This document shows, piece after piece, positions 11,025-32,759 of a stretch of 42,118 bases of DNA (within the stretch, counting starts at the first letter, position 1; the number at the start of each line of letters is the position of its first letter). The stretch is from a virus: positions 1 through 42,118 of IMG/VR virus record IMGVR_UViG_3300027687_000027; one strand, written 5' to 3'. The notes below the pieces were generated by a model. It was not told the DNA's origin and ran no database searches. It saw nothing but the letters and a program-made list of their open reading frames with translations. Both the position numbers and the translations under genes were made by a program.

Positions 11025-12032
11025 ATGGCTACGCTATCATCGATCATACTGGCAAAGAATCCAACATTTGTTAACCAGGAAAATAATCTAGAAAAAGGGA
11101 GATTGTTTTATTTCTCTCCTGTTCAACAACATAATCAATGCACTAAGTTTACCTGGAAATCTCCAGGTGCAGGAACTGCACGGATAGAAATTTGGGGGGC
11201 AGGCGGAAGCGGTGGCAAAATGTGTTGCTGTGGAGGCGGAGTACCCGGCAACCCTGGAGCATATGTAGTTAAAACTTTTATAACTGATGCAGCAAGCAAA
11301 GTTTGCGGATGTATTGGTATTTCTTGTGGTAATGCTGACGTATTGTGTTACAGAGGAAGAAGTACAGGAACTTGTGTGTGCTGGTTTGGAACAGCTGCAG
11401 ATTCAGCACTTTGTGGTTGTTTATGTGCAGAAGGCGGCGAAGGCGGAACAACATGGTGTGCGCCAAGTTCGTCAAATTTTTGTTGCTTTGTAGCAGACGC
11501 AAAATTTTGTACAACAGCAATGACCAATCCTGCAGGAGTAGCCTGGGGAACAGGTTGTGGACTAGCATGTAATACAAGAAACACAACTGCCGCATTAACA
11601 ATAGCCAATGCATATGGCGGAGATCTTAACTGCCCAGGCGGAATTAGCTGTACAAGTTGGTATAATTGTGATAGTGCAAACCATTGTTATGCTCAATACC
11701 ATATACGAACTCCAGCAGGTGTACACAGTACATGCGGAGCAACAGTAACGTACTCAGGAGACAACGACAGTGCAATCGCTGTAGGCGGAACAGCACAGTA
11801 TCACTCATCACACAAAATGGCATTAGAAGCAGCATCAAGGTCTCCAGAAGCCGGGCACACTATGGGGTTGTGTTATTTTAGTAGACTGTGTGGATGTTAT
11901 GAAGTTAACGGTTGTCAAGCAACTCTACCGCACGGGCATGGCGGCGCACCTCCACAAACATGTAGTGGTGTTAGAGATCAAGGACAACGTGGCGGCATGG
12001 GGGCTATTAGAATATTATGGAATGCAACTTGA
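11025..12032 (+). CDS. Cysteine-rich glycine-rich tail adhesin, paralogue 1 of 3
   Basis: The protein has 335 aa and I count 29 cysteines (8.7%), many as CC or CxC pairs. A strand ending IEIWGAGGSGG (near residue 54) is followed at once by a CCC cluster, and the C-terminus is RGGMGAIRILWNAT. This IxIWGAGG ... GGxGxxRIxW frame is the pattern of glycine-rich phage fibre-tip domains, including T2-type gp38-like adhesins built from glycine-rich motifs. The cysteines occupy the loops between. I infer a receptor-binding tip protein stabilised by disulfides or bound metal. The N-terminal NLEKGRLFYFSP segment is shared with the next two genes and may be the attachment region. A zinc- or iron-loaded spike is an untested alternative. 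Confidence 0.6.
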   Translation: MATLSSIILAKNPTFVNQENNLEKGRLFYFSPVQQHNQCTKFTWKSPGAGTARIEIWGAGGSGGKMCCCGGGVPGNPGAYVVKTFITDAASKVCGCIGISCGNADVLCYRGRSTGTCVCWFGTAADSALCGCLCAEGGEGGTTWCAPSSSNFCCFVADAKFCTTAMTNPAGVAWGTGCGLACNTRNTTAALTIANAYGGDLNCPGGISCTSWYNCDSANHCYAQYHIRTPAGVHSTCGATVTYSGDNDSAIAVGGTAQYHSSHKMALEAASRSPEAGHTMGLCYFSRLCGCYEVNGCQATLPHGHGGAPPQTCSGVRDQGQRGGMGAIRILWNAT

Positions 12033-12057
12033 TGATTAACTATAGGAATTTATTATA

Positions 12058-13065
12058 ATGGCAACTTCACTCTCAACTTTAATTAACGACAGACTAGCAA
12101 AGTCGTTTCCTCCCGAGGAATCTAATCTAGAAGATGGACAGATTTTTGTATTTTGTTCAGCTAGAGAGTTTGGCTGCTTTACTAACTGTTTTGCTTGGTA
12201 TGCACCAGCAGCAGGAACTGCTAAAATTGAAATTTGGGGAGCAGGAGGAAGTACTGGGTGTCAATGTTGTTGTAACTATAGTGTAGGTGGACAATCAGGC
12301 GCTTATGTTAAAAAATCAGTAACAATGGCATCAGGAGGATATGTTTGTGGAAACACAGGTCATCCTTGTATGCCTAACGCAGCTTTTTGTTATCCAAACT
12401 GTTCAATGGCAACGTGTGCAACAATTTGCTTAGGAACAGCAAGTTCATGTAGTTGTATATGTGCTCAAGGTGGTAACGGCGGATTTTCAGGATGTCATAC
12501 AGGACAATCAACTCATTGTTGTTTACAAAAATGTTGTTTTGGTACTGTAAATGGATCTAGTTTAACTGTAACCCCAACAGGCACAGGTTGCGGATATACA
12601 TGTGGATGTAGAAATACATATGCTGTAGCAACCGGCTACGGCGGAGATATTAATTGCCCAGGAACATATGGTTGTACTGGATATTGGACTTGTAACACAT
12701 CAAGTAGTACAAATCATATGCAACACTCAAACGCTATACCACATGGACAGTACTCAACCGGTCAAGCAACGTCAATGGTTGGAGCAGACAGTGGTCATAC
12801 AATGGGTAACTCACAATCAGGACAGGGTCCTAGTAATTTACAAGGTGGTAGAGGAGCGATAAACAGAAACAGCGGAGCAGGCCATATGGGGCTCTCATCA
12901 TGTTGGGCCAGTGGTACAACATGTGCATGTTATGAAACATTTGCGTGTATCTCATTAGTACCGCCAGGACAAGGATCTTCAATGATGCAAGGTTGTCCAG
13001 ATGTAAGAAACGTTGGTAGCAGGGGCGGCCTTGGTTACGTAAGAATATTATTTAAAGCGACATAG
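12058..13065 (+). CDS. Cysteine-rich glycine-rich tail adhesin, paralogue 2 of 3
   Basis: The protein has 335 aa with 32 cysteines by count (9.6%). It has the same frame as its neighbours: NLEDGQIFVF near residue 25, IEIWGAGGS followed by CQCCC, a CSCICAQGGNGG motif in the middle, GYGGDINCPG around residue 195, and C-terminal RGGLGYVRILFKAT. The section around residues 225-280 is rich in Gly, Ser, Gln and Asn and differs most from paralogue 1, as expected for a receptor-contacting loop region under diversification. The gap from paralogue 1 is 25 bases with a TAGGAA ribosome site. The function is inferred to be host recognition. Confidence 0.6.
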   Translation: MATSLSTLINDRLAKSFPPEESNLEDGQIFVFCSAREFGCFTNCFAWYAPAAGTAKIEIWGAGGSTGCQCCCNYSVGGQSGAYVKKSVTMASGGYVCGNTGHPCMPNAAFCYPNCSMATCATICLGTASSCSCICAQGGNGGFSGCHTGQSTHCCLQKCCFGTVNGSSLTVTPTGTGCGYTCGCRNTYAVATGYGGDINCPGTYGCTGYWTCNTSSSTNHMQHSNAIPHGQYSTGQATSMVGADSGHTMGNSQSGQGPSNLQGGRGAINRNSGAGHMGLSSCWASGTTCACYETFACISLVPPGQGSSMMQGCPDVRNVGSRGGLGYVRILFKAT

Positions 13066-13076
13066 GAAAAAATTAC

Positions 13077-14171
13077 ATGGCAACTTTATCATCATTATTA
13101 TCAAGCAAGTCTTTGCTTACAGACGGAACTGAAGAAACAAATCTGGAAGGTGGAAGACTATGGGGCTACAGTCCGCAAAACCACAGTGAATTTTCAGGAG
13201 GCGGAGCAAAGTTTTATGGTTGTCAAATTTCAAACGATAATGCTTGGGTAGGCGAAGTCGAGGTAGAGATGTGGGGAGCAGGCGGTCGAGGCAATAGCTG
13301 TAGTTGTTGCTGTGCTTCAGGACCAGGTGGTAATCCAGGGTCCTATATAAGATTTAAAACTATAATGACACGGTCAGGATTTATCTGTACTACAGGAATG
13401 AGAGCATGTCAAAGTGGTGCACACTGTCAATGTGGAGGACAAGGATCTGCAACTTGTGCAATTGTATGTGCTGGATGTATACCGAATACATGTGTATATA
13501 CATGTTCTTGTGCATGTGCTCAAGCAGGGCTAGGCGGAAGATCTATGTGTATTAGTGGCGGCGCATCAATGATGTGTTGCTTAGGAACAAACGGAGCATG
13601 TATTACCCCTAACGTAGATTATGAAGGTAATGCTGTTAGTGACGGATGTGGAATGGTTTGTAATGTTGGTAACGCTAACAACTGGCCTACAGTAGCAAGT
13701 TTACCGGTAGCTAATTACACTAATGGCGGCAATATATCTAGCGTTGTTTGTTGTAACAGTGATATTAACAGAGTAGCATGTATATTCTACGGACATTGTA
13801 ATCAATGTTGCTGGAACTGTCATAGACAAATAATACATACAGCACCAATGAGATATTCAACATGTGGCGGAGAGATGCAACTTAATCATGGTTGGAGTGA
13901 CAACATGACATACCAGGGTAGTCCTTTTGGACAGATGGATGCAGCTGTGCAAGGGATGAGTAGATCACCAACAGCTGGGTTAAGACCAAGTTTTTGTTGG
14001 CAAGGATCAAAAATGTGTACTTGTTATGAGTGGACAGGATGTACACCGTTTTGGCCTATAGCACAATCGGCTCCGTCTGATTTTGCATGTAGTGGTGTTA
14101 GAACACACGGGTTCACAGGCGGTCACGGAGCAATAAGAATTAAATACTTAGGAAATATAACAGTCTATTAA
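13077..14171 (+). CDS. Cysteine-rich glycine-rich tail adhesin, paralogue 3 of 3
   Basis: The protein has 364 aa with 35 cysteines by count (9.6%). The frame is conserved: NLEGGRLWGYSP, VEMWGAGGRG followed by CSCCC, CSCACAQAGLGG in the middle, and GFTGGHGAIRIKYLG near the end. A unique stretch around residue 240 combines His and Cys (HCNQCCWNCH), which resembles a metal-binding cluster more than disulfide pairs. It is longer than its neighbours and has a short extra tail (NITVY). It starts 11 bases after paralogue 2 with a TAGGAAAA ribosome site. The set of three suggests a repertoire of related tips or a hetero-oligomer. Confidence 0.6.
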   Translation: MATLSSLLSSKSLLTDGTEETNLEGGRLWGYSPQNHSEFSGGGAKFYGCQISNDNAWVGEVEVEMWGAGGRGNSCSCCCASGPGGNPGSYIRFKTIMTRSGFICTTGMRACQSGAHCQCGGQGSATCAIVCAGCIPNTCVYTCSCACAQAGLGGRSMCISGGASMMCCLGTNGACITPNVDYEGNAVSDGCGMVCNVGNANNWPTVASLPVANYTNGGNISSVVCCNSDINRVACIFYGHCNQCCWNCHRQIIHTAPMRYSTCGGEMQLNHGWSDNMTYQGSPFGQMDAAVQGMSRSPTAGLRPSFCWQGSKMCTCYEWTGCTPFWPIAQSAPSDFACSGVRTHGFTGGHGAIRIKYLGNITVY

Positions 14172-14177
14172 TAACAG

Positions 14178-14198
14178 TTATACAGTTTACCTGTATAA
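14178..14198. repeat. Perfect 8-bp inverted repeat over a late promoter
   Basis: TTATACAG (14178-14185) and CTGTATAA (14191-14198) are exact reverse complements separated by five bases. There is no T-run after it, so it does not look like an intrinsic terminator. Its right arm overlaps the TATAAATA octamer at 14194-14201, so it could be an operator or an RNA hairpin at the promoter. Confidence 0.55.
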
Positions 14199-14201
14199 AT
14201 A
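14194..14201 (+). promoter_or_regulatory. Late promoter octamer TATAAATA (exact T4 core)
   Basis: The exact T4 late-promoter octamer sits 31 bases before the ATG at 14233, after the end of the third cysteine-rich gene. It marks the His-rich gene as a separate late transcription unit. Confidence 0.75.
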
Positions 14202-14232
14202 TAACATAGATACTTAATTAAGGAATGAAAAA

Positions 14233-14901
14233 ATGATTACAAAAACTTTTACCCAGAATTACCCAGATCAGCCTTGGGCAGCGGCAGTAACAGATGGAAA
14301 CAGTGTTACTGTAACATGGAAAGGCACTCGTTATTATACTTTTAGTAGAGTTACTGCAACAGGCGGAGTACATGCATTTGAAGATCAAGATGACAATCGT
14401 GATAGGTTAGCAGCTGAACTAGCTTCTCATGTACACGAAGGTCATACTTTTCACATATTAGATGCATTAGCACATCCACATGTAGCAGCTTACATAATGG
14501 GCGATGACACTATTCCTGCACACGATGCAACAGGAGGCATACCACATTATGTTTTCAACACACCAAACGATGATGAAGATTACGTATATGAGTACAACGT
14601 TCAAAACTTTGTACAATCATTATACAACGGACAGGAAGCAATAACATATAATGTTGATAGTGACACTTTTACAATGCCTGGCTTCTTGGCACATCCACTT
14701 TCTAACACAAGTATTTTTACTGCATACGAAGAAGAAGCAGAAAGAATTGATTCAGCAGTTACAGGTAGAGCAGATGAATTTACAGCAGATGAACTAACAG
14801 CATTAAAAGCTTCTTCAGTATGGCTTAAAGGTGTAAGAGCAAGGTACGGATCAATTGAACCGTGGAAAATTCCACACCCAGAGCACGGCGTTACATACTA
14901 A
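14233..14901 (+). CDS. His-rich protein of unknown function in the adhesin locus
   Basis: This 222-aa protein resembles no family I can name firmly. It has a beta-rich N-terminus (residues 1-50), then a histidine cluster with six His in about seventeen residues (SHVHEGHTFHILDALAHPH, near residues 76-94), an acidic Asp/Glu-rich middle, and a helical C-terminus (EEEAERIDSAV, ELTALKASSVWLKGVRARYG). A helical C-terminus on a beta head recalls tail-fibre assembly/chaperone proteins, and its place directly after the adhesin genes would suit a gp38- or gp57-like helper; this is only inference. The His cluster could bind a metal, which is notable beside three cysteine-rich proteins. The start has an AAGGAA ribosome site. 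Confidence 0.6.
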   Translation: MITKTFTQNYPDQPWAAAVTDGNSVTVTWKGTRYYTFSRVTATGGVHAFEDQDDNRDRLAAELASHVHEGHTFHILDALAHPHVAAYIMGDDTIPAHDATGGIPHYVFNTPNDDEDYVYEYNVQNFVQSLYNGQEAITYNVDSDTFTMPGFLAHPLSNTSIFTAYEEEAERIDSAVTGRADEFTADELTALKASSVWLKGVRARYGSIEPWKIPHPEHGVTY

Positions 14902-14991: not shown

Positions 14992-15945
14992 ATGAGATCA
15001 AAGGCTTTTTTTGTCAACGGCGGATACGGTAGAGTGGTTAGTTCTATTCCCGGCTTTGAACTATATGCTAAAGAATCAGGCGATAAAGACTTTATTATTG
15101 TTTGCGAAGGCGGCACTGATGCATTTAAAGGACATCCAGATTTAGATCATAGAGCGTATGATAACTGGCACAAGAATTTATTTAAAGAAAAATTAATTGA
15201 TAAAGATATTGTATCACCTGAACCATATCGAATATGGGAATACTATAATCAAAAAGCTAGTTTAGCTCAAGGTTATGATATTGCAATTAATAACAAAGGT
15301 TTAAGAGATTTACCAAAACCAAGAATGTTTCTATCAAAAGAAGAAACACTTATGGGTAGACAAATAGTTAATCAAGTAAAAGAAAAATTAAAAAAAGAAA
15401 AAGTTGCAATTATTCAACCATTTGGTAGAGGAATAACTCACGTAGATAACACATTTGTTGACAACACTGGACGAAGTATTGAATACAAAGATCTTAAAGA
15501 AATAATTAGAAAACTACAAGAAAATGATTTTGCTGTAGTAACAATGGCAGAAATGGGATTTGATTTTACTAAAGATAAATTTAAAGACGATGTTGCAATG
15601 CCAGAATCAGTTTCATTGAGACATTGGTCTGCAGCAATTAAGTTTGCCAATCATTTTATTGGTTGTGATAGTGTTGGACAACATTTGTCGTATATCATGG
15701 ACACACCTTCAACAATTATTCTTGGTCCTACATATCCTATAAACGTATCTTATCCTGATTGTGATTATTTTAATATTGTTGATTTAGGTCAACACGGTAG
15801 AGTATATGATCCAATTAGAATAATGCCAGACGAAACTACATCAAGACATAATGAAAATTTAATGTCAATGAGTAAAGATATTGTTGAATATGTAATTGAT
15901 AGAGTATTAGGAAAACCAATAGAGGAAGAAAATGACACAAAGTAA
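14992..15945 (+). CDS. GT9/heptosyltransferase-like glycosyltransferase
   Basis: This 317-aa protein appears to have two Rossmann-like halves. The C-terminal half carries HFIGCDSVGQHLSYIMDTPS followed by TIILGPTYP, which corresponds to the FIGxDSGxxHLAxxLGTPtvxLFG motif of GT-B family 9 enzymes (LPS heptosyltransferases and relatives). The segment KVAIIQPFGRG near residue 145 fits the start of the donor-binding half. The N-terminus (FFVNGGYGRVVSSIPGFELYAK) fits the acceptor half. GT9 enzymes commonly use ADP-heptose, and ADP-heptose genes are on the minus strand about 10 kb away. The substrate is inferred. Its end overlaps the carbamoyltransferase by 14 bases, so the two are coupled. It could instead use another ADP- or GDP-sugar. 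Confidence 0.65.
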   Translation: MRSKAFFVNGGYGRVVSSIPGFELYAKESGDKDFIIVCEGGTDAFKGHPDLDHRAYDNWHKNLFKEKLIDKDIVSPEPYRIWEYYNQKASLAQGYDIAINNKGLRDLPKPRMFLSKEETLMGRQIVNQVKEKLKKEKVAIIQPFGRGITHVDNTFVDNTGRSIEYKDLKEIIRKLQENDFAVVTMAEMGFDFTKDKFKDDVAMPESVSLRHWSAAIKFANHFIGCDSVGQHLSYIMDTPSTIILGPTYPINVSYPDCDYFNIVDLGQHGRVYDPIRIMPDETTSRHNENLMSMSKDIVEYVIDRVLGKPIEEENDTK

Positions 15946-17743
15946 AACACAATGGATTGCAGGAATTGCAAGAGGCCACAATTCAGGAATTTGTTTATTA
16001 AAAGATGGCAAAATTGTATTTTCAATAGAAGAAGAAAGACTAAGTCGTACCAAATACGATGGAGGACCGTTGGCGTCTATTGTTAAAATCTTAGAATATA
16101 CAGATAGACTAGATTACTTAGTTGTAGCTCATACTCAACCGTTAAGTGTGTCATCGCCTAAATTAGAATTTTCCGGTGACGATGTATATACAGGGTTGTG
16201 TAAAAAATTAGGATTAATAGATGGAAAATTTAGAGGACAGGAGCAGCATCCTCAAGTTGTCGATGTATCTGATCAACATCATAAGTTACATGCAGCGTGT
16301 GCGTTTTATAGAAGTGGATTTGAAGATGCAGTGGGTGTAGTAATTGACGGTGCAGGAACATTTATACAAATGACTGTGAATAACGAAGATACAATGGGTT
16401 TTGAAACTGAAACATTATTTAACTGCTCTTATCCTGCAAAGTTTCAAACAATAGGAAAACATATTGCAACTAGAGGACCGCATGCTACAGATTTTATTCA
16501 AACAGAAGAAGATGGAAACTCGCTTGAAATAACAGTATCCGATCGTGCCGGCATAGTTAAAGTTTATGAAGCAGTTACTCAGTACTGTGGGTTTAGTGCA
16601 ATTGAGGCTGGAAAAACTATGGGACTATTTCCATATGGTGAAAAGAATGATAAAATTCCTCAATTATTTGACGATATGGGCAGAGTTCCGTTGTCAAATA
16701 GAAATTTAGTTGCTCCAACATATCCTAATGCTGCAGTAGTGAATGAACATTTATACACTGAGTTATCTGGAAAAAATATTTATGATGGATCACCAGAAGG
16801 CGAAACCATTGACCTAACTCTTTTGCAAAATAGAAGAGACCTTGCGTATGCATGTCAAACCGAAACTCAACAAGCCGCTTCTAATTTAATTAGAGAAGCT
16901 GTTGAAAGAAGTGGTAAAAAGAATGTAGTAATTAGTGGCGGATACGGATTAAATTGTGTAGCAAACTATTATTACTTAAAAGATCTAGAAGACTTAGATA
17001 TAAACCTTTACGTAGAACCAGTGTCTAATGATGCAGGTACTGCTATGGGTGCTGCTATGATGATGCATCATCAACTTACAAATAGCGAAGTAGTTTTAGA
17101 TAGAACAAATAATTTATATCTTGGACCAAAATATGATTATAAGTCGCAACAACTTAAAGCAATTGCTAAAGAATATAACGCAGATGTAACTGATTGCACA
17201 AATGAAGATGTAATAGATTTAATTACTTCAAAAAATATTGTTGCAATTTTTCAAGGTCAAAGTGAAAACGGACCAAGAGCACTAGGCAACAGATCATTGT
17301 TATATGATCCTACTGATCCTAACGGCAAGGATCATGTTAACGAAATTAAACATCGAGAATACTTTAGACCGTTTGCAGGTAGTATCTTAGAAGAAGATGT
17401 ACACGAATGGTTTGACCTACGTGGTATGGAAAGTTCTCCAACTATGATGTATGCTGTAAATTGTCAGCCTGGCATTGAAGAAAAGATTCCTGCTATTATT
17501 CATGTTGACGGAACTTGTCGTATTCAAACCGTTAATAGAGACCAAAATAAACATTATTATGATCTAATTAAAGCGTTTAAAGAAAAGACAGGATGTCCTA
17601 TAATCTTTAATACAAGTTTTAATTTAGGTGGTGAACCTCTTGCAGAAACTCTTCAAGATGCACTTTGGACCTTGCAGGAAAGTAGAATAGAATACTTGTA
17701 TCTTCCTGAATATCAAACTCTGTTTACATTGAAAAACGAATAA
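15932..17743 (+). CDS. O-carbamoyltransferase, NodU/CmcH/TobZ family
   Basis: This 603-aa protein has the family's usual length and two-domain order. The N-terminal Kae1-like domain has ARGHNSGICLLKDGKI, the acidic EEERLSR motif, the metal-binding HxxxH (H116 KLH120) and VVIDGAGTF. The C-terminal YrdC-like region includes SGGYGLNCVANYYY, the phosphate-binding NGPRALGNRSLLYDP and EYFRPFAGSIL. Such enzymes move a carbamoyl group from carbamoyl phosphate, via carbamoyl-AMP, onto a hydroxyl of a sugar or antibiotic. Overlap with a GT9-like gene points to a sugar acceptor. In Pseudomonas aeruginosa the LPS core heptose is 7-O-carbamoylated, so a heptose acceptor is plausible but unproven. Confidence 0.88.
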   Translation: MTQSKTQWIAGIARGHNSGICLLKDGKIVFSIEEERLSRTKYDGGPLASIVKILEYTDRLDYLVVAHTQPLSVSSPKLEFSGDDVYTGLCKKLGLIDGKFRGQEQHPQVVDVSDQHHKLHAACAFYRSGFEDAVGVVIDGAGTFIQMTVNNEDTMGFETETLFNCSYPAKFQTIGKHIATRGPHATDFIQTEEDGNSLEITVSDRAGIVKVYEAVTQYCGFSAIEAGKTMGLFPYGEKNDKIPQLFDDMGRVPLSNRNLVAPTYPNAAVVNEHLYTELSGKNIYDGSPEGETIDLTLLQNRRDLAYACQTETQQAASNLIREAVERSGKKNVVISGGYGLNCVANYYYLKDLEDLDINLYVEPVSNDAGTAMGAAMMMHHQLTNSEVVLDRTNNLYLGPKYDYKSQQLKAIAKEYNADVTDCTNEDVIDLITSKNIVAIFQGQSENGPRALGNRSLLYDPTDPNGKDHVNEIKHREYFRPFAGSILEEDVHEWFDLRGMESSPTMMYAVNCQPGIEEKIPAIIHVDGTCRIQTVNRDQNKHYYDLIKAFKEKTGCPIIFNTSFNLGGEPLAETLQDALWTLQESRIEYLYLPEYQTLFTLKNE

Positions 17744-25174: not shown

Positions 25175-25804
25175 TTACATTTCCAAAGATTTTACAAAAG
25201 CACTTAGATCATCAAATATTTTTGTTTTAGCTTTTATCTTTTTATATGTAAATCTGTTTAGTAGTTTTTCAGTTTCTTCGCCGTAACCTGTTCTAACTAG
25301 GATAGGAGTTGCATCCATTTTCATAGCTACTTTTAGATCAGATATTTTATCACCAACGTAATACCCTGTTGAGAATTTAATATCAGGGTGTTCTTTTTCA
25401 CAACGCTTAAACATACCAGTATTAGGTTTAGCATACATGTCATCTTTTCTATTACTCTCACTATAGTATAAAGCTTCAATGCTCATACAACCTGCTTTTC
25501 CTAACAATTCAAACATCCGTTGATTTACTAAGGCAACATCAGACTGTGACATGATGCCTTTTTCAATGCCGCCTTGATTAGATATAATAACAACTTGATA
25601 CTGATACTTCTTTAATGTTGTAATTGCTTCTAAGCTACCAGGAATTGGGTCAAAGTCTTCGGGCTTAGTTACATACGTTCCTAAGTCTTTATTAATAGTG
25701 CCATCGCGATCTAACCCAATTACTATTTTAGAATTTTTTGCAGATTCATTAATTAACTTAGGTATGTCAGATGTCCATCTAATCGTTGGTTGTGGGTCTG
25801 TCAT
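25175..25804 (-). CDS. gmhB: GmhB-like heptose bisphosphate phosphatase (HAD-IIIA)
   Basis: This 209-aa protein is a HAD-superfamily phosphatase. It has the DxD nucleophile motif (D32-R-D34 in GLDRDGTINKD), motif II IISNQGGIEKG, a lysine in YAKPNTGMF and motif IV VGDKISDLKVAM. Spacing and sequence (FDPIPGSLEAITTLKK, then TPILVRTGYGEE) match D-glycero-D-manno-heptose-1,7-bisphosphate 7-phosphatase. The Cys/His zinc loop normally found before the lysine motif is absent (SESNRKDDMYAKPN). An N-terminal extension of about 25 residues precedes the core. The start is supported by CCAGGAGA ten bases upstream, and it overlaps the cupin gene by 26 bases. A related HAD sugar-phosphate phosphatase is the alternative, but its neighbours HldD and HldE favour the heptose pathway. 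Confidence 0.78.
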   Translation of the reverse strand: MTDPQPTIRWTSDIPKLINESAKNSKIVIGLDRDGTINKDLGTYVTKPEDFDPIPGSLEAITTLKKYQYQVVIISNQGGIEKGIMSQSDVALVNQRMFELLGKAGCMSIEALYYSESNRKDDMYAKPNTGMFKRCEKEHPDIKFSTGYYVGDKISDLKVAMKMDATPILVRTGYGEETEKLLNRFTYKKIKAKTKIFDDLSAFVKSLEM

Positions 25805-26171
25805 TTTGACTGTCTCCTGGCGTAATTCTATAATTATCTTCTACTGAATCAGGCGTACTAACTTCTGTAATACTACTTCCGTCTTCTAGTGCTTCAATTT
25901 GATGCGGCTGCAAAGGAGGATTGTGCCATGTTTGTCCTTCGCATAATTCTTGTTCATGATGCGTAGCATCGTTAGTATTAATCCACCTTACAATAAATTT
26001 ACCGTTGTTTACAAACCAAGTTTCATCTTTTTCTCTATGAAAGTGCATACTAAATTTATTACCTGTTTTTTCAAATACCATAATCTTGCCGCAGTACTTG
26101 TCGTTAGTTGCCCAGATGAGTTCATACCCCCATCCTTTTTGTACAACTCCATTTAACCGTTCAACTTCCAT
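25779..26171 (-). CDS. Cupin-fold sugar-phosphate isomerase-like protein
   Basis: This 130-aa single-domain cupin starts its core with KGWGYELIWATNDKYCGKIM. The first metal-binding motif is H43-F-H45 with E50 (SMHFHREKDETWFVNNG). The second is PPLQPHQIEALEDG with a His near residue 94. The KxWGYE opening resembles the cupin domain of type II mannose-6-phosphate isomerase/GDP-mannose pyrophosphorylase, whose members bind a divalent metal and act on sugar phosphates. Lying between hldD and gmhB, it may replace or assist a sugar-phosphate isomerisation step such as that of the missing GmhA, but this is speculation. It overlaps hldD by 11 bases and the phosphatase by 26, so all are translationally coupled. 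Confidence 0.7.
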   Translation of the reverse strand: MEVERLNGVVQKGWGYELIWATNDKYCGKIMVFEKTGNKFSMHFHREKDETWFVNNGKFIVRWINTNDATHHEQELCEGQTWHNPPLQPHQIEALEDGSSITEVSTPDSVEDNYRITPGDSQNDRPTTND

Positions 26172-26979
26172 TTATATATTCCTCAATATTAATCCAGTTA
26201 TGATAACAAACAGAGTTTAACTTAGTTAAATCTGCACTAGTAAATTTTTGATATTGTGCTTTTAAATTATTTGGCATAGGAACGTATTTAATTGTAGCGT
26301 TATGCTTCTTTGCTATAGCAGTAGCAACCGTTTCAAAACTTACAGGATTTCCTGTACCAATATTCCATATATCAGACTTGTCTACATTTAACATTTTTTC
26401 ATGTACCTGGCACAGGTCCTCTACACAAACAAAATCTCGTTTATATTCTGAGCTATTTTCAAATACATTAATAACTCCGTTTTCTTTAGCTTGTTTAGTG
26501 AACTTTGTATAAGGGCTTGCTTGATCTTCTTTATGCTCTTCTAACGGACCATATACATTAAAGTATCTAAACCCTTGTACTAGTATATTAAAATCTCCGT
26601 TGTGCTGCATTACAAACCTATCAAATAGGTATTTACTCCATGCGTAAGGAGACTGAGGCAGCAACGGGCCGTCTTCTGTAAAGTGAGTGGTAGTACCATA
26701 TACACTAGCACTTGATGCATATTGAAAATTTGTACCCATTGTATCACATGCTTGTAATAACCGCATACTGTTTTCGTAATTCTGTGATAAAATTTGCTCT
26801 ACATCTGTACAAGTTGTACTAGAGATAGCACCAAGGTGTATAACCCAATCATATCCACTTGGGTCTGGGACTGCATTTTCCATGTATTCCCATCCTTCAA
26901 CTTCGTGTCCACAAAGTGAAAGATATGCACATAAATTTTGCCCAATAAATCCTTGATATCCTGTAACTAAAATTTTCAT
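26161..26979 (-). CDS. hldD: ADP-L-glycero-D-manno-heptose 6-epimerase (HldD/RfaD)
   Basis: This 272-aa extended short-chain dehydrogenase has the NAD(P)-binding GxxGxxG at residues 7-13 (GYQGFIG), the catalytic region YASSASVYG (87-95) and the Y112-xxx-K116 pair. Segments diagnostic of HldD are all present: HLGAISSTT, GFRYFNVYGPLEEHK, YKRDFVCVEDL, WNIGTGNPVSFETVA and LKAQYQKFTSADLTKL. The enzyme epimerises ADP-D-glycero- to ADP-L-glycero-D-manno-heptose, the last step in making the donor for LPS inner-core heptose. It is somewhat shorter than the E. coli protein (about 310 aa). It overlaps hldE by four bases (ATGA) and the cupin by eleven. This is the most secure member of the heptose cassette. 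Confidence 0.9.
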   Translation of the reverse strand: MKILVTGYQGFIGQNLCAYLSLCGHEVEGWEYMENAVPDPSGYDWVIHLGAISSTTCTDVEQILSQNYENSMRLLQACDTMGTNFQYASSASVYGTTTHFTEDGPLLPQSPYAWSKYLFDRFVMQHNGDFNILVQGFRYFNVYGPLEEHKEDQASPYTKFTKQAKENGVINVFENSSEYKRDFVCVEDLCQVHEKMLNVDKSDIWNIGTGNPVSFETVATAIAKKHNATIKYVPMPNNLKAQYQKFTSADLTKLNSVCYHNWINIEEYINGS

Positions 26980-28115
26980 TTAATTTCCTTTATTATATTT
27001 GTAGTACTGTATCCTTCAATAGTAGGAACAATATGCACATTGGCTAAATCGTTACCAACGACAGTATCTATAGTATAGTCACCGCCTTTAACAATTATAT
27101 CAGGATGTATATCTTTAATTAGTTCATACGGAGTATCGTTATCAAACACAATTACGTCATCTACCCACGGCAAACATTTTAGTTGCTCTGCTCGTATGTG
27201 CTGATTGTTGATAGGTCGGCTGTTGCCTTTTAATCGTTTAACACTAGCATCACTATTAATACCAACAATTAACTTATCACCTTTTGTCCGTGCTTCTTTT
27301 AAAAGGTCAAAATGACCTTTGTGTAATATATCAAATACACCGTTAGTAAATACAGTCTTATTGCGTAAATCAGATAAAGTTAGTATATATGTTCCAACAT
27401 GTTTAACTGATTCAGTTGCTGCTTCTACTGCTAAACTTAAACATTTATTATAATTATATCCATTAGTTAACGCATATACAAACGTAGCAAGGAAACAATC
27501 TCCTGCTCCTGTAACATCACTTACTTCAATTTTCTCTGGAAAAACTGTATAGGAAATTTTATCTATGTTTGCTTCAACTGCACCGTCTGCAGATGTTGTA
27601 ATAATATTACCGGTCCATTCGTCAAATTCAAATTTAGTAAATTCACTATTGTTAGGTTTTACTAGCCAGGCACCTTCATACTCGTGTGCATACCGTTTAG
27701 GGTCTACAATTACTTTAGGTCCTTGACTGTTAATATGTGCAATAATTTGTTTTGCATTGTCTAATACACCTTTGTCGTAGTCACTTAGTATTACATAATC
27801 CCATTGTGAAAAATCACTCTTTAGTACGTTTGTTAGTACAGCATTAGAGTCTGCATCTTTATCATTGTCAATGCGTGTAATATAATGTCCGTCACAAATT
27901 ACTCTAGTTTTAATACTACTAGGCTGTCCAGTTTTAAACAGTGTTACGTCAACACCTAGACTTTTTAAGTTTTCATAAACAAGTCCAGCACCTCCAGTTG
28001 TTTCAACTTCTCGTTGGTACTTAACAACAGGCACAGGAGCCTCAGGACTTAATCGTTCTGAGGTACCATAGATATATTTGTCAACAATTACATCGCCAAA
28101 AACTAACACTTTCAT
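26976..28115 (-). CDS. hldE: Compact bifunctional heptose-phosphate kinase/adenylyltransferase (HldE/RfaE)
   Basis: This 379-aa protein holds two activities in the HldE order. Residues 1-245 form a PfkB-type kinase: FGDVIVDKYIYG, SPEAPVPVVKYQ, the TTGGAG substrate loop and the catalytic DVTGAGDCF near residue 200. Residues about 253-379 form a nucleotidyltransferase with TNGVFDILHKGHFDLL (HxGH motif), GINSDASVKRLKG and IVKGGDYTIDTVVG. It phosphorylates heptose-7-phosphate at C1 and later adds AMP to make ADP-heptose. It is about 100 residues shorter than E. coli HldE (477 aa), nearly all missing from the kinase half. A perfect sigma70 promoter lies so close that transcription is predicted to start at the ATG itself. 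It is first in a four-gene operon. Confidence 0.9.
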   Translation of the reverse strand: MKVLVFGDVIVDKYIYGTSERLSPEAPVPVVKYQREVETTGGAGLVYENLKSLGVDVTLFKTGQPSSIKTRVICDGHYITRIDNDKDADSNAVLTNVLKSDFSQWDYVILSDYDKGVLDNAKQIIAHINSQGPKVIVDPKRYAHEYEGAWLVKPNNSEFTKFEFDEWTGNIITTSADGAVEANIDKISYTVFPEKIEVSDVTGAGDCFLATFVYALTNGYNYNKCLSLAVEAATESVKHVGTYILTLSDLRNKTVFTNGVFDILHKGHFDLLKEARTKGDKLIVGINSDASVKRLKGNSRPINNQHIRAEQLKCLPWVDDVIVFDNDTPYELIKDIHPDIIVKGGDYTIDTVVGNDLANVHIVPTIEGYSTTNIIKEIK

Positions 28116-28121
28116 ACTATT

Positions 28122-28150
28122 ATTATACCTTCTTTTAACTTATTTGTCAA
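28122..28150 (-). promoter_or_regulatory. Consensus sigma70 promoter for the heptose operon
   Basis: On the minus strand, TTGACA (28150-28145) and TATAAT (28127-28122) are both perfect with a 17-base spacer. The -35 box lies inside the 3' end of the Nudix gene. The ATG of hldE starts seven bases after the -10 box, so the mRNA should be leaderless or nearly so. It would let host RNA polymerase express the cassette early. Confidence 0.85.
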
Positions 28151-28577
28151 GTAAATTAATTGTTTGAAATACAGTTTCTAACTTAGAAAGATTAACCCTA
28201 CTTTGTAGAGTATTGCGTAATCCTAAATGTAAAGGTTTTGGCCATTTACCAAAACTGCACCAAGCATAACCACTATGTTCGTGATTTAATTTTGGAATAA
28301 ATTCTTCATTAATTACACATAGGTATGTATGAAATTGGAAATGCTCGTCATTAGATACAAAAGACTCTAACGGTAATATTTTTTTAATATTAGGCACACT
28401 GCCTATTTCTTCTTGGATTTCTCGTTGCAACCCTTCCCAAGGGGTTTCAACCCCTTCGTTGGTTCCGCCAACTAACCCCCACAGGTTAGATTTTTTTCCA
28501 TTGGCTCGAAGCAAGAATAAAAATCTATTTGTATCAAGTGTGTAGAAAAGAGCTCCACTGCAAACAATTTGGTTCAT
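28140..28577 (-). CDS. Nudix hydrolase
   Basis: This 145-aa protein has a perfect Nudix box GX5EX7REUXEEXGU: G38, E44 and R52-E-I-Q-E-E-I-G59, preceded by NLWGLVGG. The box binds Mg2+ and positions water to cleave a nucleoside diphosphate linked to another group; the substrate cannot be read from the box. The N-terminus (QIVCSGALFYTLDTNRFLFLLR) and FQFHTYLCVINEEF in the middle fit the fold. It lies 13 bases downstream of gp15, so it is probably in the gp14-gp15 late transcript, and it precedes hldE. It could act on a nucleotide sugar such as ADP-heptose or on nucleotide pools. The start has only a weak ribosome site. Confidence 0.85.
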   Translation of the reverse strand: MNQIVCSGALFYTLDTNRFLFLLRANGKKSNLWGLVGGTNEGVETPWEGLQREIQEEIGSVPNIKKILPLESFVSNDEHFQFHTYLCVINEEFIPKLNHEHSGYAWCSFGKWPKPLHLGLRNTLQSRVNLSKLETVFQTINLLDK

Positions 28578-32084: not shown

Positions 32085-32759
32085 TTGTTTAAATATCAAA
32101 TTACCCCTGCGTTTTCAACACCAATTGTAAGTGTTAACATTGGTCAAATTGACGTAATGACATTAGCTTGGGTTAAAAATTTAACATACCCAACTCAAGG
32201 AGTTGCTTGTACAGGTAATGATGATCATTTACCAATAAACGAACGAGGCTTTGATATTATCAATGCACCTCCACTTACTTCTCTTAAGAAAAAAATTAAA
32301 GAAGCAGTAGATTATTATGCATACACTATATTAGATGTCGATACTAGTACTAACTTTGCTTTTACTTCAAGTTGGATTAATAGATTAGAGAAACACGAAG
32401 ATATACCTAAACATATCCACAAAAATAGTATTATATCAGGAGTGTATTATATAGACGTAACTCCTAATTCAGCACCTATTACCCTTCATAAAAATATAAC
32501 ACATTTAAATACTTGGCCTGCATCTACAACGCCTGCATCAGCAGGAGTAAATTGGAATCAATTTAATACTGATGCGTATACATTTAATCCAGTTAACGGC
32601 TTAGCTATCTTATTCCCAAGTCACTTAGAACATTCTGTAGCGGCTAGTAATGAGGATACTTATAGATACGGTCTTGCATTTAATATGTTTGCAACCGGAA
32701 CACTTATAGGCGATGCTGGACCAGCCTCTCGTTGCACTATTACAGGAGTAACTTTATGA
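32085..32759 (+). CDS. 2-oxoglutarate/Fe(II)-dependent oxygenase
   Basis: This 224-aa protein follows the phage 2OG-Fe(II) oxygenase pattern. HIHKNSIISGVYYIDV provides candidate metal ligands H110 or H112 with a nearby Asp, PITLHKNI follows as the next strand, and AILFPSHLEHSV supplies the distal ligand H183; RYGLAFN contains the Arg expected to bind 2-oxoglutarate. Such enzymes hydroxylate small molecules, proteins or nucleobases; the substrate is not predictable here. They are frequent in marine T4-like phages. The only reasonable start is TTG at 32085 with AAAGGTGA upstream, giving MFKYQITPAF. It is coupled to the kinase through an ATGA overlap and driven by a perfect sigma70 promoter. Confidence 0.82.
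   Translation: MFKYQITPAFSTPIVSVNIGQIDVMTLAWVKNLTYPTQGVACTGNDDHLPINERGFDIINAPPLTSLKKKIKEAVDYYAYTILDVDTSTNFAFTSSWINRLEKHEDIPKHIHKNSIISGVYYIDVTPNSAPITLHKNITHLNTWPASTTPASAGVNWNQFNTDAYTFNPVNGLAILFPSHLEHSVAASNEDTYRYGLAFNMFATGTLIGDAGPASRCTITGVTL

Follow-up and report, generated by a model that had tools for sequence, protein, structure and literature searches.

A phage-borne ADP-heptose cassette in which a cupin may do the work of GmhA

The window analysed here, i.e., the whole stretch of 42,118 bases of IMG/VR record IMGVR_UViG_3300027687_000027, is a fragment of a marine tailed-phage genome in which genes for tail fibres, sheath, tube and head closure are present. Its sheath-stabiliser-like protein has its closest counterparts in jumbo phages, e.g., Phosso, PA5oct and Atu_ph07. 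At 25175-28115 four overlapping minus-strand genes encode an HldE-like protein, an HldD-like protein, a cupin and a GmhB-like protein; the overlaps amount to 4 nt (HldE/HldD), 11 nt (HldD/cupin) and 26 nt (cupin/GmhB-like). An earlier interpretation of the DNA letters alone (referred to as the sequence-only reading) had pointed out these four genes, and their coordinates, strand and overlaps were all borne out. The four-gene observation is confirmed and lies well beyond chance. The locus raises the question of which enzyme would provide the heptose-7-phosphate for such a cassette: GmhA, which the abstract of PMC11056994 presents as the first committed step in making heptose and as a pursued drug target, is not evident, and the sequence-only reading had left its step to the host or to the cupin. 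Judging by sequence, we consider it likely that the cassette represents a self-contained ADP-heptose pathway with the cupin in the role of GmhA, and the most likely identity of the cupin is that of a non-orthologous sedoheptulose-7-phosphate isomerase.

Enzymes of the cassette and the proposed pathway

The HldE-like protein combines the domains PF00294 (PfkB) and PF01467 (CTP_transf_like) in one open reading frame (ORF). Its kinase part aligns with 4e84 (2e-23) and its transferase half with 5x9q (5.9e-29), and the motifs GAGD and HxGH, which we take to be the kinase and the transferase motif of HldE, respectively, are kept. With about 248 aa the kinase is short and lacks, in the alignment, segments that cellular HldK has. 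Because of this shortened kinase and a score under the NCBI naming cut-off (290 vs 521 bits) the protein was filed as HldE-like. For the same reason of a score under the naming cut-off (223 vs 275 bits) the epimerase was filed as HldD-like; in the alignment with Escherichia coli HldD (1eq2) it keeps the Ser, the Tyr-x3-Lys, the HK lysine and the Rossmann glycine motif, the Ser, the Tyr-x3-Lys and the second Lys presumably being catalytic. The phosphatase exceeds the cut-off of the HAD-IIIA model TIGR01662 (82 vs 44.6 bits), contains DxDGT and the later HAD motifs and aligns with 4pnh, 2gmw and 3l8h. It stays under the NCBI naming cut-off of the GmhB model PRK08942 (127 vs 178 bits), and as the Cys/His zinc loop of bacterial GmhB (CPH...CxC of 4pnh/3l8h) is absent from it in the alignment, it was named GmhB-like only.

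The three HldE-, HldD- and GmhB-like proteins are predicted to be enzymes of the heptose pathway, which is supported by profile matches and alignments to solved enzymes. Both agree with the three heptose enzymes and the cupin recognised in the sequence-only reading, as do the diagnostic motifs it had named for HldE and HldD. A placement of kinase and epimerase in non-heptose families, which would have spoken against that reading, was not observed: by sequence both fall into heptose families. The heptose-pathway reading of the cassette is supported accordingly at the level of protein families.

We infer the substrate and the reaction of the cupin and the order of steps in the window phage as follows. 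The cupin would convert sedoheptulose-7-phosphate to heptose-7-phosphate with the help of K48, the kinase of HldE would add the 1-phosphate and the HAD phosphatase would take off the 7-phosphate. The transferase half of HldE would form ADP-D,D-heptose, which HldD would epimerise to ADP-L,D-heptose. Finally, a GT9-fold transferase and a carbamoyltransferase encoded in the same window would put the sugar on virion fibres or a host surface glycan and carbamoylate it. Compared with the bacterial ADP-heptose system, the HldE fusion architecture, the HldD residues and the HAD-IIIA phosphatase are alike, and the window has them in one operon; it differs by a cupin in place of the SIS-type GmhA, the compact kinase, the phosphatase without zinc loop and its location in a phage.

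The cupin was recognised as such by Pfam and by its AlphaFold2 (AF2) model (predicted local distance difference test, pLDDT, 90.4). Having no SIS domain, it is not a member of the SIS-type GmhA proteins, and it may work like GmhA though outside that family. Its metal and catalytic residues match those of D-lyxose/D-mannose isomerases: the cupin profile aligns with D-lyxose isomerase YdaE of Bacillus subtilis (2y0o) via YC-x-K, HxH, KxE, H and TE-x-S, and the metal ligands (HxH, E, H) and the catalytic Lys of these enzymes are present and conserved in all 38 phage and cell cupins compared. Eleven of the 12 checked positions are invariant in this set, among them Y26, C27, K29, H43, H45, K48, E50, H90 and E103. 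For the Thermofilum enzyme TsLI, the accessible text of PMC8378251 gives H75, H77, E88 and H143 as metal ligands and K86 as the residue thought to stabilise the enediol. YdaE, TsLI (7nzo) and Z5688 of E. coli (3kmh) have the cupin fold and the residue pattern in common with the phage protein, with 22-25% identity in the structure alignment; the phage cupin is shorter (130 vs 171-227 aa) and its presumed substrate is a seven-carbon sugar phosphate. Conversion of D-mannose to D-fructose is an activity of these isomerase kin. The Pfam model Lyx_isomer (D-lyxose isomerase, PF07385) matches all 32 cupin members weakly. A second cupin of the same family forms the C-terminal part of a 508-aa protein (L165:13277-14803), the front part of which reads, by eye, as NeuB sialic acid synthase-like.

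The cupin and GmhA in viral and cellular genomes

Scans of viral contigs yielded 80 kept loci of 316 for HldE and 69 of 69 for HldD. Together with P-SSM2 and P-TIM68, and with four loci common to both scans counted once, 147 loci were obtained, among which two contigs occur twice (L029/L084 and L034/L083). A locus was regarded as uncut when the cassette genes were flanked on either side by more than 1,500 bases. All 83 uncut loci (45 groups when clustered at 90% kinase identity, 30 at 80%) hold HldK, HldA, HldD and the cupin; a HAD phosphatase recognisable by the queries used was found in only 39 of them. The 24 cupin-free loci of the 147 are all cut by an end. Since the selection of loci relied on HldE or HldD and not on the cupin, this constancy is informative; among the partners of the heptose genes the cupin is the most constant. 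It is retained even in one phage clade with a different kinase, which is about 30% identical to that of the window. Among 50,697 phage records, 31 have a match that spans 80% or more of the HldE query, namely 29 from marine phages or cyanophages, a bacterial contig and a faecal fragment. The cupin query matches 35 records, including all 29 of these marine ones. The other six belong to S-SM2 (two records, with separate HldK and HldA), Bellamy (two records), SynMITS9220M01 and AG-345-E15.

The view of the sequence-only reading that GmhA is not evident holds for the window, a fragment of 42 kb in which no SIS_2 domain is encoded. Nor did SIS_2 match in any of the 52 viral records from the 147 loci, of which P-SSM2 and P-TIM68 are complete and the contigs reach 198 kb, and none of the 13 phage-collection records found with E. 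coli GmhA is among the 35 cupin records. A second set of seven records gave one weak SIS match, in SynMITS9220M01. With this phage as the exception, a GmhA elsewhere in the phage genomes was rejected for the records searched. In a metagenome-assembled genome (MAG) with phage contigs of 335 kb and 153 kb the SIS matches sit instead on contigs of 68,576 and 18,677 bases.

Two further candidates for GmhA were dismissed. The phage genes annotated as 'phosphoheptose isomerase' encode proteins of about 110 aa that start with DxDGT (P-SSM2, P-TIM68); the one of P-SSM2 has 114 aa and no Pfam match, and with its DxDGT start it is a small HAD by motif and not GmhA. Among the genes in gaps of the cassettes no cluster was recognised as GmhA, the commonest (63 loci) reading as a 2-oxoglutarate (2OG) oxygenase. 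The 'phosphoheptose isomerases' are found at L001:13113-13457 and in orthologues (T4-GC 306), small HAD-like cyanophage proteins that give no SIS match, and the cupin beside them is named 'cysteine dioxygenase' or, in some records, nucleotidyltransferase.

A different genetic context is provided by the cyanophages and marine phages Bellamy, SynMITS9220M01 and AG-345-E15, in which the cupin gene lies between those of a GHMP kinase and an NTP_transferase, i.e., HddA-cupin-HddC. The flanking genes of Bellamy match the GDP-heptose enzymes HddA (7.2e-83) and HddC (4.2e-17). The ADP and GDP branches of heptose synthesis have only the isomerase and phosphatase steps in common, and as all three phages already carry HAD genes, the cupin fits the isomerase. 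The heptose genes of SynMITS9220M01 are named in excerpts of PMC7378029; a second cluster in this phage encodes an HddA-like kinase and, next to it, a SIS protein with a GmhA match at 2.8e-12. Second clusters of an HddA-like kinase, a GmhA-like SIS protein and a small HAD are located at L153:14556-16317 and L190:8335-10086, in phages or contigs that carry the cupin cluster as well, with kinases and SIS proteins 65-66% identical between the two.

Outside of phages, a scan of genome contigs revealed 41 cupin loci, two of them (L157, L158) clearly on phage contigs of a MAG. In the fetched flanks, 25 loci have one or more Hld genes and 21 have both HldK and HldA. Compact heptose operons with a cupin are present in 11 loci of DPANN and candidate phyla radiation (CPR) genomes; ten of them hold cupin, HldD, HldK, GmhB and HldA, nine in exactly this order, and L168 is without GmhB. 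Eight of these 11 genomes encode no SIS protein that scores 80 bits against the GmhA model TIGR00441. Moreover, the cupin is fused to heptose enzymes: in two genomes a single ORF (443 and 439 aa) combines HldK with a C-terminal cupin, and an N-terminal cupin is joined to HldD in one genome (418 aa). The strongest single piece of evidence is the comparison of two operons, GmhA-HldK-HldA-GmhB in genome G219 and [HldK-cupin]-HldA-GmhB in G139, each with HldD on the opposite strand: the cupin replaces GmhA and the remainder is unchanged. Family membership, linkage, gene fusions and this replacement within the operon order are read directly from sequence or fold. Close relatives of the cupin, sharing as much as 71% identity with the phage family, also occur in bacteria and archaea with no heptose genes nearby (L159, L160, L161, L163, L166, L172, L183, L188).

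A phyletic comparison points in the same direction. A strong HldA (E below 1e-40) is encoded in 13 of the 141 genomes compared from one archaeal class; six of these possess a strong cupin only, five GmhA only, none both and two neither (G136, and G210 with a weak cupin match only). The association of cupin with HldA (Fisher p 1.2e-6) and the mutual exclusivity among the 13 (p 0.016) are to be read with the proviso that these values assume independent genomes, that the genomes are related and partly incomplete and that the thresholds were set after seeing the lists. GmhA is absent from all ten strong-cupin genomes, against an expectation of 1.5, a difference that does not reach significance (p 0.19). 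The 285 genomes of the class of G074 add little: of six with a strong HldA, one has the cupin, two have GmhA and three lack both. Of the two sources that the sequence-only reading had offered for the isomerase, the cupin is the better one in view of linkage, operon swap and the fusions with HldK and HldD.

Use of the heptose: virion or host surface

A candidate for the transfer of the heptose is encoded in the tail-fibre region of the window, where the gene of a GT9-fold protein overlaps that of a Nol-like carbamoyltransferase (Table 1). Over the whole chain, the AF2 model shares its fold with the GT9 heptosyltransferases (Z 19-22.8), namely 3tov (22.8; 279 aligned, root mean square deviation 3.5), WaaF (20.5), WaaC (19.2) and TibC (19.0); the next matches are a plastid NDH-complex subunit (Z 17.7-18.3) and other GT-B proteins (11.6 and below). 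It differs from these heptosyltransferases in the low identity of 10-13% and in the neighbouring carbamoyltransferase. The window protein itself gives no match to PF01075 or to Pfam generally. Of 24 other records, two match PF01075 above the cut-off and nine at E<=0.001; in three of these records the matching proteins are orthologues with 58-59% identity to the window protein, in two of them above the cut-off.

All 80 loci that were kept of 240 with GT9-like relatives contain a carbamoyltransferase near the GT9-like gene. Proximity was rejected as a tie between this pair and heptose, with HldK, HldA, HldD or the cupin within 6 kb in only nine of the 80 loci. Of the 36 contigs with a GT9-like gene and a length of at least 50 kb, the HldA model finds a match with E 0.001 or lower in 25 and with more than 100 bits in 19. 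The GT9-fold transferase and the carbamoyltransferase probably attach and carbamoylate the heptose.

The acceptor and the purpose are inferred. The sequence-only reading had proposed a change of host lipopolysaccharide (LPS), a glycosylation of virion proteins or an altered heptose metabolite signalling; decoration of a surface, be it the virion or host LPS, fits the transferase pair in the tail-fibre region. That the same cassette delivers its product to host LPS or capsule, for superinfection exclusion or receptor masking, is possible, if somewhat less than evenly so. Earlier authors label such clusters as LPS or capsule genes (in parts of PMC3037559 and PMC7824862), and GT9 enzymes include LPS heptosyltransferases; the similarity of the GT9-like model to the protein heptosyltransferase TibC is, however, about equal to that to WaaC. 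Furthermore, both the cassette and the GT9-carbamoyltransferase pair are surrounded by tail-fibre and virion genes in the window and are near tail genes in P-SSM2. According to excerpts of PMC4515613, the LPS of Synechococcus WH8102 and CC9311 contains neither heptose nor 3-deoxy-D-manno-octulosonic acid (KDO), yet the phages Sf-CH5, Sf-CH8 and Sf-FS3 with the recorded host WH8102 carry the heptose cassette. Because of these virion-gene surroundings and the heptose-free LPS of WH8102 we lean towards virion decoration, for which the chances are little better than even.

Table 1. Positions of the cassette genes and further features of the window.
Feature	Position	Strand	Evidence and remarks
GmhB-like HAD-IIIA phosphatase	25175..25804	-	TIGR01662 above cut-off; PRK08942 4.2e-37
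Cupin, proposed sedoheptulose-7-phosphate isomerase replacing GmhA	25779..26171	-	PHROG 7851 ('cysteine dioxygenase')
HldD-like ADP-heptose 6-epimerase	26161..26979	-	TIGR02197 3.7e-66; 1eq2 1e-43
HldE-like, PfkB heptose-7-phosphate kinase + heptose-1-phosphate adenylyltransferase fusion	26976..28115	-	NCBIfam HldE 2.3e-86; TIGR02198; TIGR02199
HldE part: compact kinase	27372-28115	-	alignment to 4e84
HldE part: adenylyltransferase	26976-27371	-	alignment to 5x9q
NUDIX hydrolase, directly upstream of HldE	28140..28577	-	PF00293 3.1e-15
GT9-fold, heptosyltransferase-like (phrog_8954), overlaps carbamoyltransferase	14992..15945	+	AF2 model, pLDDT 87.8
Nol-like carbamoyltransferase	15932..17743	+	phrog_1601 9.1e-167; PF16861; PF02543
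Four ORFs (222-364 aa) between tail fibres and GT9-like gene	11025-14901		no Pfam match; three share short similarity with PSSM2_306 (P-SSM2)
2OG-Fe(II) oxygenase	32085-32759		4 kb from the cassette

Some neighbouring genes recur in the relatives. The NUDIX hydrolase adjoins HldE in many of them and stays beside the sheath gene when the cassette is rearranged. A 2OG-oxygenase-like gene of about 200 aa was found by reading inside or beside the heptose cassette in 63 loci, e.g., L073:9090-9719; a hydroxylation linked to glycosylation is possible. Aldolase- or transketolase-like genes adjoin the cassette in some phages (L035:6738-7562, L002:6847-7992, L152:5844-6437), a class II aldolase being confirmed by Pfam only in L152, and could bear on the supply of sedoheptulose phosphate.

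Other roles of the cupin, known clusters and significance

Several observations weigh against an isomerase in place of GmhA. The window cupin remains below the gathering cut-off of the Pfam model Lyx_isomer (16.2 vs 20.8 bits) and was, for this reason, not filed as a D-lyxose isomerase member. In the comparison of its structure with known isomerases, suggested in the sequence-only reading, it aligns with lyxose isomerases, but the fold is not isomerase-specific, with CapF, quercetinase and KdgF scoring as high or higher, and the fold alone was not used as proof. As the characterised lyxose isomerases use free sugars, the binding of a phosphate by the cupin is an assumption. No Hld gene appears within the fetched flanks of 16 of the 41 cellular cupin loci, which indicates that the family also serves elsewhere or includes solitary copies; for nine Hld-free cupin loci the surrounding genes were read. 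In three of the 11 DPANN/CPR operon genomes (G071, G083, G084) a SIS protein exceeds 80 bits to TIGR00441; this protein belongs to a separate HddA-GmhA-GmhB cluster in G071 and G084 and is unexplained in G083. SynMITS9220M01 and contig L190 hold both cupin and SIS, each kinase having its own isomerase adjoining. Finally, five of the 19 strong-HldA genomes of both classes have neither a strong cupin nor GmhA; in partly incomplete genomes, HldA thus does not demand either of them.

Instead of acting as the isomerase, the cupin could act later, e.g., as an epimerase or ketoisomerase after activation of the sugar, with heptose-7-phosphate supplied by GmhA or another isomerase of the host. The cupins RmlC and FdtA act on nucleotide sugars, the usual substrate being a 4-keto sugar from a 4,6-dehydratase. 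In some phages additional genes for epimerases or GMD-like proteins lie close to the cupin, and these, like the existence of orphan cupins, would be in line with such a function; no 4,6-dehydratase, however, was recognised in the window cassette. A late-acting enzyme would also have to be reconciled with a cupin that is fused to the kinase using the isomerase product, occupies GmhA's place in the operon, is found in both the ADP and the GDP branch and accompanies HldA in six DPANN genomes without GmhA, which makes this role unlikely. That the cupin is an oxygenase or other metalloenzyme travelling with the cassette is very improbable, since the name of PHROG 7851, matched at 4.2e-37, and the fold matches to quercetinase, oxalate decarboxylase and a putative cysteine dioxygenase stand against a Glu metal ligand and a K-x-E pattern of aldose-ketose isomerases kept in 38 of 38 cupins and against HldK and HldD fusions that fit a pathway step, the PHROG name itself probably deriving from weak fold similarity.

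Related gene clusters have been described before. The heptose/LPS clusters of the cyanophages P-SSM2, S-SM2 and S-SSM7 (T4-GC 304, 305, 307, 308) unite HldA, HldK, cupin and HldD, as does the window, and according to parts of PMC3037559 these four co-occur in three phages. In the cyanophage clusters HldA and HldK are separate genes and a small HAD is annotated as 'phosphoheptose isomerase', whereas the window has a fused HldE and a GmhB-like phosphatase. A survey of jumbo phages mentions that cyanophage sugar clusters may feature cupin-fold sugar isomerases and does not use the word heptose in the portion available (PMC7824862). A type II mannose-6-phosphate isomerase was reported in a cyanophage (PMC9602691, in part), rfaE/hldE and waaF are mentioned among viral genes in a section of PMC10653327, and hldE in ultra-small prokaryotes in one of PMC9938205. 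The literature search retrieved no paper naming a cupin as sedoheptulose-7-phosphate isomerase; the cyanophage cassettes are already published.

More broadly, and only tentatively, the cupins may constitute a second, unrelated family of sedoheptulose-7-phosphate isomerases, small and lyxose-isomerase-like, which serves the ADP and GDP branches in marine phages, DPANN and CPR, with heptose being made from an intermediate of central metabolism even in heptose-less hosts and carbamoyl-heptose placed on the phages' own tail fibres by the GT9 transferase and the carbamoyltransferase. If the isomerase role of the cupin is true, a heptose pathway has been overlooked or called incomplete in phage, DPANN and CPR genomes, and the public names of the small HAD ('phosphoheptose isomerase') and of the cupin ('cysteine dioxygenase') would have to be corrected. 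It would also explain how phages of cyanobacteria without LPS heptose could still make heptose, and what such phages glycosylate would become a question for mass spectrometry.

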